DNA of 36,426 nt from Magnetococcales bacterium. GTDB taxonomy: Bacteria > Pseudomonadota > Magnetococcia > Magnetococcales > UBA8363. Made by a program: the position numbers and the translations under genes. Under the pieces are notes generated by a model. The model searched no databases. It was not told where the DNA came from and was given only the letters and a program-made list of their open reading frames with translations. The stretch is taken from NCBI GenBank assembly GCA_015228815.1, contig JADGCV010000037.1, forward strand, positions 1 to 36,426, given 5' to 3'. Each line of letters begins with the position of its first letter. The first letter of the stretch is position 1. Below, piece by piece: positions 18,173-21,777 of this stretch.

Positions 18173-18232
18173 ATGACGGGTGATTTTCCCGGGTGTGGGT
18201 GCGGGGTTGGAATTTTCCAGAAAAATTCATGA
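18173..18232 (+). CDS. Candidate 19-residue small protein or leader peptide ahead of the Rpn gene
   Basis: A very strong ribosome-binding site, AAGGAGGG (18160-18167), lies 5 bases before an ATG that opens a 19-codon frame, MTGDFPGCGCGVGIFQKNS, ending 25 bases before the Rpn start. The CGCG cysteine pair and glycine content are unusual. It may be a translated leader that couples or regulates translation of the nuclease, or a genuine microprotein. The alternative is that the box is a relic of an older start for the Rpn gene. Confidence 0.35.
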   Translation: MTGDFPGCGCGVGIFQKNS

Positions 18233-18257
18233 TGCCTTTCAAAAACGGAGTTTTCTC

Positions 18258-19202
18258 TTGTCGGATTATGATTCGGGCTACAAACTGCTTTTCAGCCATC
18301 CAGACATGGTGCGTGACCTACTTCGAGGGTTTGTCAAGGAGGAATGGGTTGAACAACTGAATTTTTCCAGTCTGGAAAAGGTGAGTGGCAGCTATGTCGC
18401 CGATGATCTTCGTGACCGGGAAGACGATGTGATCTGGCGTGTTCGTTGGGGAACAGAGTGGTTGTTCATCTATCTGCTTCTGGAGTTTCAATCCTCCGTG
18501 GATTGGATCATATCGGTAAGAACGGACGCCTATATGATGCTCTTGTACCAGGATTTGGTCAAGGCTGGGCATGTGAAGCGTGGAGATCGACTTCCTCCCG
18601 TGCTTCCGGTTGTTCTGTACAACGGCAAGTCGGCCTGGACGGCGGCAATGGATGTATCGGAGTTGATTACACCGGTTCCTGGTGGACTTGATCGTTATCG
18701 GCCACGCACGAGGTATCTGCTTATCGACATTGTACGGTATAGAAACGCCGAATTGGTGCCTATGCGTAACCTTGTCGCGGCGCTTTGCCGGTTGGAGAAG
18801 AGTCGGACGCCTGGAGAAATTCGCGATGTAGTGGCACTTTTGGTCGATTGGTTGAAAGCCCCGGAACAGTTGAGTTTGCGGCGAGCGTTCACGGTGATGC
18901 TTGGGCGCGTGTTGTTACCCAGGCGGGTTCCTGGGCAGGCAGTTCCGGAGTTGAATGATTTACAGGAGGTAAATGCCATGCTGACCGAGACTGTGGGAGA
19001 ATGGACAAAAGAGTGGACTCGTGAAGGTATCCAAATTGGCAAGGCAGAAATGCTGACCCGTCAGCTGCAACGCCGCTTTGGCACAATGCCTGACTGGGCC
19101 AGTGAAAAAGTCGTCAAAGCGGATCTTCCCTCTTTGGAGAATTGGAGCCTTCGCATCTTCGATGCCCAGTCTCTGGACGATGTCTTTGTCGACAAGCCAT
19201 GA
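18258..19202 (+). CDS. Rpn-family recombination-promoting nuclease / putative transposase (PD-(D/E)XK)
   Basis: The 314-residue protein is of the Rpn/YhgA-like group, DNA endonucleases that promote RecA-independent recombination and were formerly called transposases. The N-terminal pattern YDSGYKLLFSHPDMVRDLL and the core EDDVIWRVRW followed by WLFIYLLLEFQSSVDWIISV give the D...ExQ catalytic signature of the PD-(D/E)XK fold. Later come LPPVLPVVLYNG and YLLIDIVR, also typical. The C-terminal part (WTKEWTREGIQIGKAEMLTR then QLQRRFG) matches the usual tail. The likely start is a TTG at 18258 with GGAG 7 bases upstream, since family members begin near SDYDSGYK; an upstream GTG at 18180 is less likely. 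Such genes spread within genomes, and a second one begins at 36167. Confidence 0.85.
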   Translation: MSDYDSGYKLLFSHPDMVRDLLRGFVKEEWVEQLNFSSLEKVSGSYVADDLRDREDDVIWRVRWGTEWLFIYLLLEFQSSVDWIISVRTDAYMMLLYQDLVKAGHVKRGDRLPPVLPVVLYNGKSAWTAAMDVSELITPVPGGLDRYRPRTRYLLIDIVRYRNAELVPMRNLVAALCRLEKSRTPGEIRDVVALLVDWLKAPEQLSLRRAFTVMLGRVLLPRRVPGQAVPELNDLQEVNAMLTETVGEWTKEWTREGIQIGKAEMLTRQLQRRFGTMPDWASEKVVKADLPSLENWSLRIFDAQSLDDVFVDKP

Positions 19203-19334
19203 CGCGACCGAAGAAACTTTTCCGCGGAAGTGCCCGCGCAACGATTTCGGGCGTGTACCGAACCTCTGGGGCGTTTTTATTGCAAGGCAAGGGATATGAG
19301 GATTCGTCGTATGGCGATCCTCATGGCGTCAAGA

Positions 19335-20153
19335 TCAGCGTTTTGCGGCGCCTTTGGACGGGTGCATTCCGGACCAGGGGGGGGTGTCGCACAGTTGCGG
19401 CGGGTTTTGTCTTTGCAGGGAACGGTAGAAATTGCGACACATCGGGGCATGGGTGCTCTGTTGCGGACAGTTCTTGAGTCCGTCTTCGAGCATCTTCTGA
19501 TAATTTTCCAAACGAATCAGGCAGTTGCGACGCCAGATGCAGGCCAGGTAACGTTCCTGGTCGGGACCGGGCCATCTTGGGGGCGAACCGCAGCGTTCCC
19601 TGGCATTGTTCGCGGGCGGGGCAAAGACCGGTTTTCCTTTTGTATTTTGTTCGTCGGGTTCCACTGGGGCCGATGCCTTGGCGACCGCCATCTCCCGTAC
19701 ACTCCGACCGGATGGAGGATCTTGAAGGGACGGCGTGACGTTTTGCCTTCGTGGCACGGGGGGCGTGTCGCCTGACAGCCCTCCCGTCATCGCCACCGGA
19801 GTGGATGGGGTGGCCGATGCCGCGGGCGGGGAGGGGGAGAGGAGCGGGGCTTCCGATAGGGTCTCCGACGATTCTTCGTTCGCCGGAGAGGCACTGACGC
19901 GGTCCTGGTGGTTGTCCTGCATGATTCCGGGGTCGATGGCGGTGACCGCATCGGGAAAATCCAGATGTTCGAAGCGTTTAAGCATCATGGACAACCATTC
20001 CGTTTCCTCGGAGAATCGCGGCAGGCTTTGCAGGGGCCCGTTGGGAGCATCGACAAAGCGAAGCAACAGCACGAAAAAGCCGATGCCCAGGAGCATCCCC
20101 ACGAGATAGGGGGTCACCGAACGGAAAAACCAGTGGATGCAGCGTCCGATCAC
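19335..20153 (-). CDS. Membrane-anchored protein of unknown family with a six-cysteine periplasmic tail
   Basis: I do not recognise this family. The 272-residue protein has one N-terminal membrane helix (about 13-34, TPYLVGMLLGIGFFVLLLRF) with positive charges before it, so the rest should be periplasmic. Residues 85-185 are Pro/Ser/Ala-rich and probably disordered. The last 85 residues carry six cysteines (188, 205, 211, 229, 239, 255), among basic and aromatic residues (RYLACIWRRNCLIRLENYQK), suggesting a small disulphide-bonded domain. The start is GTG at 20153 with a weak box. It lies 70 bases after the JAMM gene on the same strand and could be co-transcribed with it. Confidence 0.75.
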   Translation of the reverse strand: MIGRCIHWFFRSVTPYLVGMLLGIGFFVLLLRFVDAPNGPLQSLPRFSEETEWLSMMLKRFEHLDFPDAVTAIDPGIMQDNHQDRVSASPANEESSETLSEAPLLSPSPPAASATPSTPVAMTGGLSGDTPPVPRRQNVTPSLQDPPSGRSVREMAVAKASAPVEPDEQNTKGKPVFAPPANNARERCGSPPRWPGPDQERYLACIWRRNCLIRLENYQKMLEDGLKNCPQQSTHAPMCRNFYRSLQRQNPPQLCDTPPWSGMHPSKGAAKR

Positions 20154-20223
20154 GTTCCGTCAACCTTCCTTGTGATGTCGATCATTGTGCCGCCGGTGGA
20201 AACCGGGCCTCCTTTGGGGGCGA

Positions 20224-20652
20224 TCAATCGTCGATGGTCAGTTCCTGGGGATGGGCGGCGCCATCGCGTACCAGAAATCCATTGAGATCCAGTCGTCCAA
20301 GGGTATCGAGCGAGACGATCAGATGCAGGACCTCGGGATCGTAGGCCTCGCGAAGGTCTTGGGGCGATGGCATGGCGGGCGCCGCGGGATGACTGTGATA
20401 GATGGCGATGACCTGTTCGCCACGCTCCCGCAGATCCTTCATGAGTTGGATCTGTTGTGCCGGATCGGCCAGGAAACGGCGTTCGTGACGCAGGCTGTTG
20501 GCGAGTGGATGCCATGCGGTGATGGTTCGTGGCGTCTGTCCCGACAGAATGCCCACGCATTCCTCGGGGGCCGTTTTCAGGGCATGGGCGAGGATGCGAT
20601 TGACGATGGGCCGGGGGATGACCCATGCCGTTTGCGGGATCGGTTCCGCCAT
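20224..20652 (-). CDS. JAMM/MPN+ metallopeptidase, M67 family
   Basis: The 142-residue protein is a stand-alone MPN domain with a complete JAMM zinc site: Glu31 in PEECVGILSG, His86 and His88 in IYHSHP, and Ser96 and Asp99 in PSPQD (H-x-H-x7-S-x2-D). Such bacterial enzymes cut isopeptide or C-terminal peptide bonds, in known cases removing extensions from ubiquitin-like sulfur carriers of the ThiS/MoaD type. No sulfur-carrier or E1-like gene is visible nearby, so the substrate is open. An in-frame ATG 43 codons upstream exists; MAEPIPQTAW at 20652 is chosen because MPN similarity begins just after it. It is divergent from the WGR gene and upstream of the cysteine-rich membrane protein. Confidence 0.88.
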   Translation of the reverse strand: MAEPIPQTAWVIPRPIVNRILAHALKTAPEECVGILSGQTPRTITAWHPLANSLRHERRFLADPAQQIQLMKDLRERGEQVIAIYHSHPAAPAMPSPQDLREAYDPEVLHLIVSLDTLGRLDLNGFLVRDGAAHPQELTIDD

Positions 20653-20723
20653 GGTTTGTTTTTTTCCGCCGGGCCGGTTGAAAATCTTATATGACGACTT
20701 GCCAAAAGGGCGTCCTTCTGACC

Positions 20724-20730
20724 TATTATA
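20724..20730. promoter_or_regulatory. Shared palindromic -10 box between the divergent JAMM and WGR genes
   Basis: The 9-base palindrome CTATTATAG (20723-20731) gives a perfect TATAAT on the minus strand (towards JAMM) and TATTAT on the plus strand (towards WGR). On the plus strand TTGCCA lies 19 bases upstream, longer than ideal; on the minus strand the -35 is poor. It is the only strong -10-like sequence in the 136-base divergent gap. Confidence 0.45.
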
Positions 20731-20788
20731 GCGCTGTTGGGAAACGGTACACGGAAAAATCGCACAAGCGGAAAAAAGCATCCCGTTG

Positions 20789-21049
20789 ATGAAAGCCTAC
20801 CTCCAAAGGGTTCATCCGCAATCCGGTGTTGTCTGGTTTTATTCCATCCAGATTCAACGCGATCTTCTCGGAGAATGGCAACTGATCCGGGAGTGGGGGC
20901 GTTCCGGTTCGTCGGGAACCCTGCGGCGTCAGATATTCGACGACCTTGATCCCGCGCTGGAAAGCATGGACCTGTTGGTGGAACAGTTGCGGGAAAAGGG
21001 ATTCAAGGTGGTCATGCGCGAGGGGTTGAGTGCCGAGATGGCCCATTGA
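20789..21049 (+). CDS. Stand-alone WGR-domain protein
   Basis: The 86-residue protein consists of a single WGR domain. It has the pattern [20 protein letters not shown], then [20 protein letters not shown] with the name-giving Trp-Gly-Arg, followed by a C-terminal helix ([17 protein letters not shown]). WGR domains in eukaryotic PARPs contact DNA or nucleic acid, and short bacterial versions are common but uncharacterised. The ATG at 20789 follows TTG at 20786, and either could start translation. It is divergent from the JAMM gene and 80 bases upstream of the metallo-hydrolase on the same strand. Confidence 0.85.
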
Positions 21050-21129
21050 GTCTTGTCGCGACCGGTGGGGTGTGGCCGGATTGCAAACCATCAGGATGGA
21101 ACATCATCATTGAACGAAGGAAATTGGCG

Positions 21130-21777
21130 ATGGTCGAACCTTTTCACATGGCCATGGAAGCGGGGGTGCTTCAGGTCAACTGTCAGATATTGGCCAATCG
21201 TGAAGCGGGTTTGGCGGTGGTCATCGATCCGGGTGGCGACGCCGACCGGATTCTGAAAGAACTGGATCGCCTTGGGGTCCGTTTGACCCACATCATCAAC
21301 ACCCATGGTCATTTCGATCATTTGGGCGGGGTTGCCGACCTCAAGGAGAGGACGGGCTGTGCATTCTGGATCCATCCCGGAGATGCACCGTTGGTATCCG
21401 CGGCCCGCCAACATGCGAGGGCGTGGGGCCTGCCCTTTGGCGCGCCGCCCACGATCGATCGCGAACTGGCCGACAACGAGGTCCTTGAAGTTTCCGGGAT
21501 GGAGCTTCAGGTCATTCACACCCCTGGCCACACACCAGGAGGGGTCTGTTTGCGTTGGGGCAATCGGATGGCGGTTGGCGATACCTTGTTTCAGGGGTCG
21601 ATCGGACGCACCGACCTTCCAGGCGGCAATCATGCGCAACTGATCCAATCGATCAAGAACAGGCTCTTGCTCCTGGGCGATGACATCGTCTGTCATCCAG
21701 GACACGGACCGGATACAACATTGGGCAACGAACGCAGGCACAATCCTTTTCTCAACAGCATGTGGTCGTTTTCGTGA
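21130..21777 (+). CDS. Metallo-beta-lactamase-fold hydrolase (glyoxalase II-like)
   Basis: The 215-residue cytoplasmic protein has the metal-binding motif THGHFDH (His59, His61, Asp63, His64), a later HTPGHTPGG histidine, the bridging Asp in AVGDTLF and the final histidine in VCHPGHGP. Together they make a full binuclear metal site. The GSIGRTDLPGG segment is typical of the short glyoxalase II-like group that hydrolyses hydroxyacyl-thioesters, but substrate cannot be set from sequence. The ATG at 21130 follows GAAGGA by 8 bases; the open frame upstream overlaps the WGR stop and has no conserved features. Confidence 0.92.
   Translation: MVEPFHMAMEAGVLQVNCQILANREAGLAVVIDPGGDADRILKELDRLGVRLTHIINTHGHFDHLGGVADLKERTGCAFWIHPGDAPLVSAARQHARAWGLPFGAPPTIDRELADNEVLEVSGMELQVIHTPGHTPGGVCLRWGNRMAVGDTLFQGSIGRTDLPGGNHAQLIQSIKNRLLLLGDDIVCHPGHGPDTTLGNERRHNPFLNSMWSFS

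Follow-up and report, generated by a model that had tools for sequence, protein, structure and literature searches.

CYS6, a previously unclassified cysteine-rich inner-membrane protein family found in the order Magnetococcales

The window, meaning the whole 36,426-nucleotide stretch of Magnetococcales DNA that was analysed (GCA_015228815.1, contig JADGCV010000037.1), contains a gene here termed CYS6 (Table 1). The first-pass annotation had described this gene as a 272-residue open frame with cysteines at positions 188, 205, 211, 229, 239 and 255, located 70 bases downstream of a JAMM peptidase gene on the same strand. The sequence and coordinates confirm both statements and add one further cysteine, C5, in the N-terminal part. 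The JAMM protein passes the Pfam cut-off for Prok-JAB (83 bits versus 25). The Prok-JAB/JAMM motif consists of HxH...SxxD with an upstream glutamate, and the motif is present in the window's JAMM protein, which carries YHSHP...PSPQD. Against the NCBIfam equivalog for haloarchaeal desampylase, the protein scores 67.3 bits, below the 130-bit cut-off; it also matches phage tail-protein families in PHROGs (best E 1.2e-10). The longest open frame of the JAMM gene spans 20224-20781, and the ATG at 20652 is the more likely start because homologues from the genus align from there. On the other side of CYS6, a YhgA-like gene (18180-19202, plus strand; PF04754 plus DUF4351) is convergent with it. A search of positions 19100-21100 against Rfam returned zero matches, and a scan for promoters and terminators stayed near shuffle expectation (1 versus 0.7 expected and 3 versus 1.9 expected, respectively).

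Table 1. Features of the CYS6 locus, in window coordinates
Feature	Position	Strand	Basis
CYS6 gene, 272 aa	19335..20153	(-)	open frame, GTG start; homologues found
CYS6 N-terminal membrane helix, residues 2-35	20049..20150	(-)	AlphaFold2, hydropathy, conservation
CYS6 Pro/Ser/Ala/Glu-rich linker, residues 38-187	19593..20042	(-)	mostly low pLDDT; predicted helix 48-60
CYS6 C-terminal six-cysteine domain, residues 188-260	19374..19592	(-)	AlphaFold2, profile, cysteine counts
Gap from JAMM stop to CYS6 start, 70 bases	20154..20223	(-)	46-246 bases across 8 genomes of the genus
JAMM (Prok-JAB) peptidase gene, 142 aa	20224..20652	(-)	PF14464 E 1.8e-23, scored on the 185-aa open frame
WGR-domain gene, divergent from JAMM	20786..21049	(+)	PF05406 E 1e-12
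Metallo-beta-lactamase-fold gene of the JAMM/WGR/metallo-beta-lactamase block	21130..21777	(+)	PF00753 E 1.6e-29

CYS6 is a real and previously unclassified inner-membrane protein family, found here only in the order Magnetococcales, which include the magnetotactic cocci. When the window's genome and 60 relatives were searched with the single sequence, every one of the seven remaining genomes of its genus gave a homologue, and matches with E values no higher than 1e-10 came from nine further families of the order; the closest homologue, that of genome G002, is 44% identical across 261 residues. A profile of the C-terminal domain, built from an alignment that omits L047 as a near-copy of L039 (alignment A3), was searched against 398 genomes of the phylum with 13 candidates scored per genome. 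It matched 36 of the 48 Magnetococcales genomes at E 1.4e-15 or better and none of the 350 genomes of the phylum outside the order credibly. Five weak matches outside the order (E 0.002-0.009) are taken as chance, since four contain internal stop codons and one covers 27 positions. Each genome has one profile match except G010, whose two copies lie on separate contigs and are near-identical by tree branch lengths. Of the 27 Magnetococcales genomes that are near-complete (completeness 90% or more and contamination 5% or less, counted from the profile-search table), 21 have CYS6 and six do not (G011, G018, G025, G029, G037 and G041), so the family is not needed by the whole order. In species-representative genomes, 10 CYS6 loci were confirmed among 17 pattern matches, and the named relatives are Magnetococcales MAGs; the 24 pattern matches in viral contigs included no CYS6 relative, and plasmids yielded none.

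The C-terminal domain is present at 37 loci in 36 genomes, and 32 of these loci are aligned (alignment A1). The omitted five comprise three fragments or split genes (L040, L046 and L049), one long and distant homologue (L054) and one that blastp did not recover (L059). At L049 (genome G046) the homologue is divided between two matches in different frames, reflecting a frameshift or an assembly error. Four further loci were dropped because the profile detects no C-terminal domain in them: L048 is an unrelated frame, and L055, L057 and L060 are weak single-sequence matches.

The earlier impression that the protein belongs to no recognised family is borne out, as it could be assigned neither to a known family nor to a solved structure. 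The window protein, searched in Pfam, NCBIfam and PHROGs, and the 32 aligned members, searched in Pfam and NCBIfam, give only weak or low-complexity matches. Those in Pfam are to Auxin_repressed (E 0.3), DUF4389 (E 0.034), Ku_C (E 0.049) and, in three members, DUF6927 (best E 0.067); in NCBIfam, one of the 32 has a low-complexity match to TIGR04526 (E 9e-4). The PDB offers a single match by sequence profile (E 1.1) and, in a Foldseek search with the C-terminal domain model only, a best E of 2.8. The best VIA-align result, a lengthened ROP variant (Z 6.0, rmsd 4.1), was rejected, as it lies within the tool's range for common arrangements of helical bundles. No description of the family was found in the literature at the level of titles and abstract openings.

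Both ends of the protein are conserved in the alignment, and the linker between them varies in length: the columns of residues 37 and 211 are 101 to 241 residues apart in the 32 rows (median 158.5). The AlphaFold2 model of the full-length protein (11 sequences) has a mean pLDDT of 66.2 and a pTM of 0.36, with its confidence concentrated at the two ends. It predicts an N-terminal helix at residues 2-35 (block-mean pLDDT 91-94 for residues 1-30), a second helix at 48-60 followed by a long low-confidence stretch, and C-terminal helices at 197-227, 236-249 and 252-256 (block means 91-94 for residues 191-250 and 86 for 251-260). The same C-terminal helices are obtained when the domain is modelled alone (mean pLDDT 82.3, pTM 0.62). 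The first helix contains the hydropathy maximum (residues 16-34), and across the 32 rows P15 and G23 never vary and W8, G19 and F26 hardly do, giving a G19-x3-G23 pattern. The first-pass description of a membrane anchor with a long disordered linker thus agrees with the model, in which the linker is mostly low-confidence, and the structure prediction that the annotation had called for returns a folded, cysteine-rich helical C-terminal domain that is confident at 197-256. We infer an N-in, C-out topology.

The cysteines of this domain fall into a core and an additional pair. The core cysteines C211, C229, C239 and C255 are kept in all 37 loci with the spacing C-x17-C-x8/9-C-x15-C. All six cysteines are found in 27 of the 37, and C188 and C205 are missing from the other ten, all of which belong to one genus (g7). 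The expectation that six cysteines would be conserved therefore holds for the core four and fails for C188 and C205 in those ten loci. Of the 32 aligned rows, 25 carry both cysteines of this pair, seven carry neither and none carries just one; the 25 six-cysteine rows have spacings of x16-17, x5, x17, x8-9 and x15. In the tree, a branch supported at 100/100 separates the seven four-cysteine rows from all others, and the segment around C188 and C205 is eroded together with the cysteines. A single loss that took the surrounding segment with it explains the absence of the pair, and the loss, as one event in one genus accompanied by erosion, counts as one observation and not many.

Such an even, pairwise presence of cysteines is what disulphides would lead one to expect, and it lends support to the disulphide-type pattern claimed earlier. 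C188 probably pairs with C205, which is the simplest reading of two cysteines that are lost together and never singly. Nested C229-C239 and C211-C255 bonds are likely in the core, because the order of the predicted helices puts C229 and C239 on either side of the turn, with C211 and C255 close to the opposite ends of the helices; this pairing is read from helix positions in the predicted secondary structure and not from coordinates. The helix order of the C-terminal domain in the AlphaFold2 model fits a hairpin, to which the bonds are assigned conditionally. CHCH (twin-CX9C) proteins of the mitochondrial intermembrane space are helical hairpins with two Cx9C motifs, and CYS6 would resemble them in combining a helix-turn-helix with two nested disulphides. 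Unlike CHCH proteins, CYS6 has the core spacing Cx17C-x8/9-Cx15C at 37 of 37 loci, an extra cysteine pair and a membrane anchor, and the two show no sequence match. Saposins have a fold with three disulphides; in VIA-align comparisons of the CYS6 domain, they (Z 2.2-4.4) and surfactant protein B (Z 4.7) appear amid unrelated helical proteins.

An oxidant for disulphide formation is likely to be present in the cell. DsbA-fold proteins occur in all 49 genomes searched, and the two in the window's genome (G000) carry CPHC and CPYC and have starts that look like signal peptides by eye, which is the ground for this view. The Pfam model for DsbB matches in 18 of the 49 genomes at E 1e-5 and does not find the protein in the window's genome (best E 0.7); with a relative's DsbB as query, 17 of the 49 genomes match, again not including the window's genome. 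VKOR was found in none of the 49.

As the best explanation of these features, CYS6 is proposed to be a bitopic tether of the envelope whose docking domain is stapled by disulphides, a proposal to which we give about an even chance of being correct. The gene family, the predicted helix and domain, the variable linker and the conserved cysteines are the observed ground for this tether model, to which it would add a topology, a bond pairing, docking and a partner. The anchor would consist of a short N-terminal tail followed by a single long membrane helix bearing a G-x3-G face, and a flexible, length-variable Pro/Ala/Ser-rich arm would span the periplasm. At the end of the arm would sit a small helical hairpin held by disulphides, with C211-C255 and C229-C239 as two nested staples and C188-C205 pinning a dispensable Pro/Gly-rich lead-in to the first hairpin helix. 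The domain could then dock on a cell-wall or outer-membrane partner, in which case CYS6 would tether or reach in the manner of proteins of the TonB, TolA or FtsN type. Proteins of that type are bitopic periplasmic tethers with a Pro/Ala-rich linker and a small periplasmic end domain, and CYS6 shares with them the short N-terminal tail, the single membrane helix, the long Pro/Ala-rich linker and the small end domain. However, the end domain of CYS6 is cysteine-rich, helical and probably disulphide-stapled, and none of the 32 members has a TonB_C, TolA or SPOR match in Pfam at E up to 0.1. By domain content, CYS6 is outside the TonB, TolA and FtsN families.

A more specific version of this build, in which CYS6 would be an FtsN-type cell-wall or division protein whose hairpin binds peptidoglycan or a divisome partner, is unlikely. 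It draws on the general likeness of a bitopic protein with a long flexible linker and a small terminal domain. However, the same search that excluded SPOR detected no other wall-binding Pfam domain in the 32 members, and none of the eight neighbouring frames scanned matches a division protein.

Outside the window's genus, CYS6 has a different neighbour. Of the 29 loci there, 25 have a gene of the RSH family (ppGpp hydrolase-like) divergent to CYS6; among the 26 loci whose fetched contig reaches at least 2.2 kb upstream, the number is again 25. Four loci lack it. In three of them the contig extends 1.3 kb or less upstream; in the remaining one, L047 of G010, it extends 6.4 kb and RSH is absent. 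One of the three belongs to G008, where the CYS6 gene is split and its N-terminal half, on contig C81, is likewise divergent to RSH. When neighbours up to 2.5 kb away were tallied for 26 loci, 25 of which reach that far upstream, greedy choice of open frames recovered RSH in 22 loci, and among the matches listed the next clusters reached at most 8 of the 26 loci, 6 on one side. A wider listing placed a further cluster just past RSH in 13 loci, and several of its large clusters were shadow frames over RSH. The RSH gene lies at loci L028-L059 (for example, L031:5846-7909, minus strand) and occurs in many genomes of the order, some of them without CYS6; a more distant second RSH-like match is found in most genomes.

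The domains of this RSH protein are HD_4 and TGS, and its RelA_SpoT region falls below the cut-off (22.9 versus 27 bits). Compared with the canonical hydrolase and synthetase motifs of RSH proteins, the consensus of 25 sequences keeps the HD-type motifs LLHDa.EDAP and K.FDvlhN, and the typical synthetase motifs were not seen in it by eye. Judged by these motifs, the protein looks hydrolase-only. CYS6 might be pictured as an envelope sensor or regulator coupled to the divergent RSH through a shared regulatory region, such that envelope or redox state sets ppGpp turnover. We regard this as quite improbable, despite the frequency of the pairing and the hydrolase-like sequence. RSH is retained without CYS6 in G018, G025, G029, G011 and G037, where no CYS6 was found beside it among the matches listed. 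Within the window's genus the two genes lie on different contigs in 8 of 8 genomes, and no CYS6 match adjoins RSH in the three genomes examined. Moreover, the part of CYS6 preceding the membrane helix is only about 13 residues long, and divergent gene order is itself weak evidence, given that the JAMM/WGR/metallo-beta-lactamase block persists too, as does the cluster beyond RSH in 13 loci. Still less probable is the fuller form of this idea, a Magnetococcales-specific envelope sensor that partners the hydrolase-only-looking RSH and provides a disulphide-based periplasmic input to ppGpp turnover. The RSH neighbourhood is a lead and not a demonstrated link.

The cysteines could also be thought to bind a metal, an Fe-S cluster or haem, making CYS6 a periplasmic electron or metal carrier, and the retention of four cysteines in every locus would suit such a role. 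However, the spacings of the 25 six-cysteine rows include no CxxC or CxxCH, the alignment contains no invariant or 90%-conserved histidine, and disulphides account better for a clade that has lost precisely one pair, which leaves a carrier role slightly less probable than coupling to RSH. A c-type cytochrome in particular was rejected, as CxxCH is absent both from these rows and from the alignment columns.

JAMM had been put forward as a conserved neighbour of CYS6, and this was not borne out. The two genes are adjacent in 8 of the 8 genomes of the window's genus, 46-246 bases apart, and in none of the 29 loci outside it, two of which (L040 and L046) end within 111 bases upstream and so cannot show a JAMM neighbour. 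In G008, JAMM is on a contig other than that of CYS6. Elsewhere JAMM keeps other company: in each of the five genomes sampled outside the genus, it lies divergent to WGR and metallo-beta-lactamase genes, the block that is also conserved within the genus and seen in the window (window 20224-21777; L089-L093), and no CYS6 match lies beside the block in any of these five stretches. The shared arrangement indicates that the block predates the genus, within which CYS6 seems to have become its neighbour through a genus-specific rearrangement, the direction of the move being drawn from parsimony and not from a rooted species tree. JAMM is thus a local coincidence of gene order and not a conserved partner of CYS6, a partnership refuted by the limitation of the adjacency to one genus. 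In two of the five sampled genomes (L089:6446-7282 and L093:5493-6323), the gene after JAMM resembles a PP-loop (SGGVDS) enzyme, which we take to be possibly LarE-like. A DsbA-fold match adjoins JAMM in some genomes of another family (G031:C46:104249-105169, G036:C172 and G041:C514).

A two-gene operon of joint function, in which JAMM might, for example, mature something that CYS6 uses, is accordingly very unlikely: the shared strand and short gaps within the genus, and the absence from the gap of any of the three terminator-like sites of the simple scan, are outweighed by the lack of adjacency at the other 29 loci although JAMM is present in 44 of the 48 genomes of the order, and by the fact that JAMM, with no export signal by eye, would be cytoplasmic and the cysteine domain periplasmic.

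CYS6 is a genuine but modest finding, for which the structural reading is good and the JAMM connection is not. The case of CYS6 and JAMM demonstrates that a lineage-specific gene neighbour can mislead. Should the link to RSH prove functional, it would hint at a path by which the envelope acts on ppGpp turnover. What CYS6 contributes is a family of envelope proteins that is unclassified and restricted to the Magnetococcales, and whose disulphide pattern can be tested.
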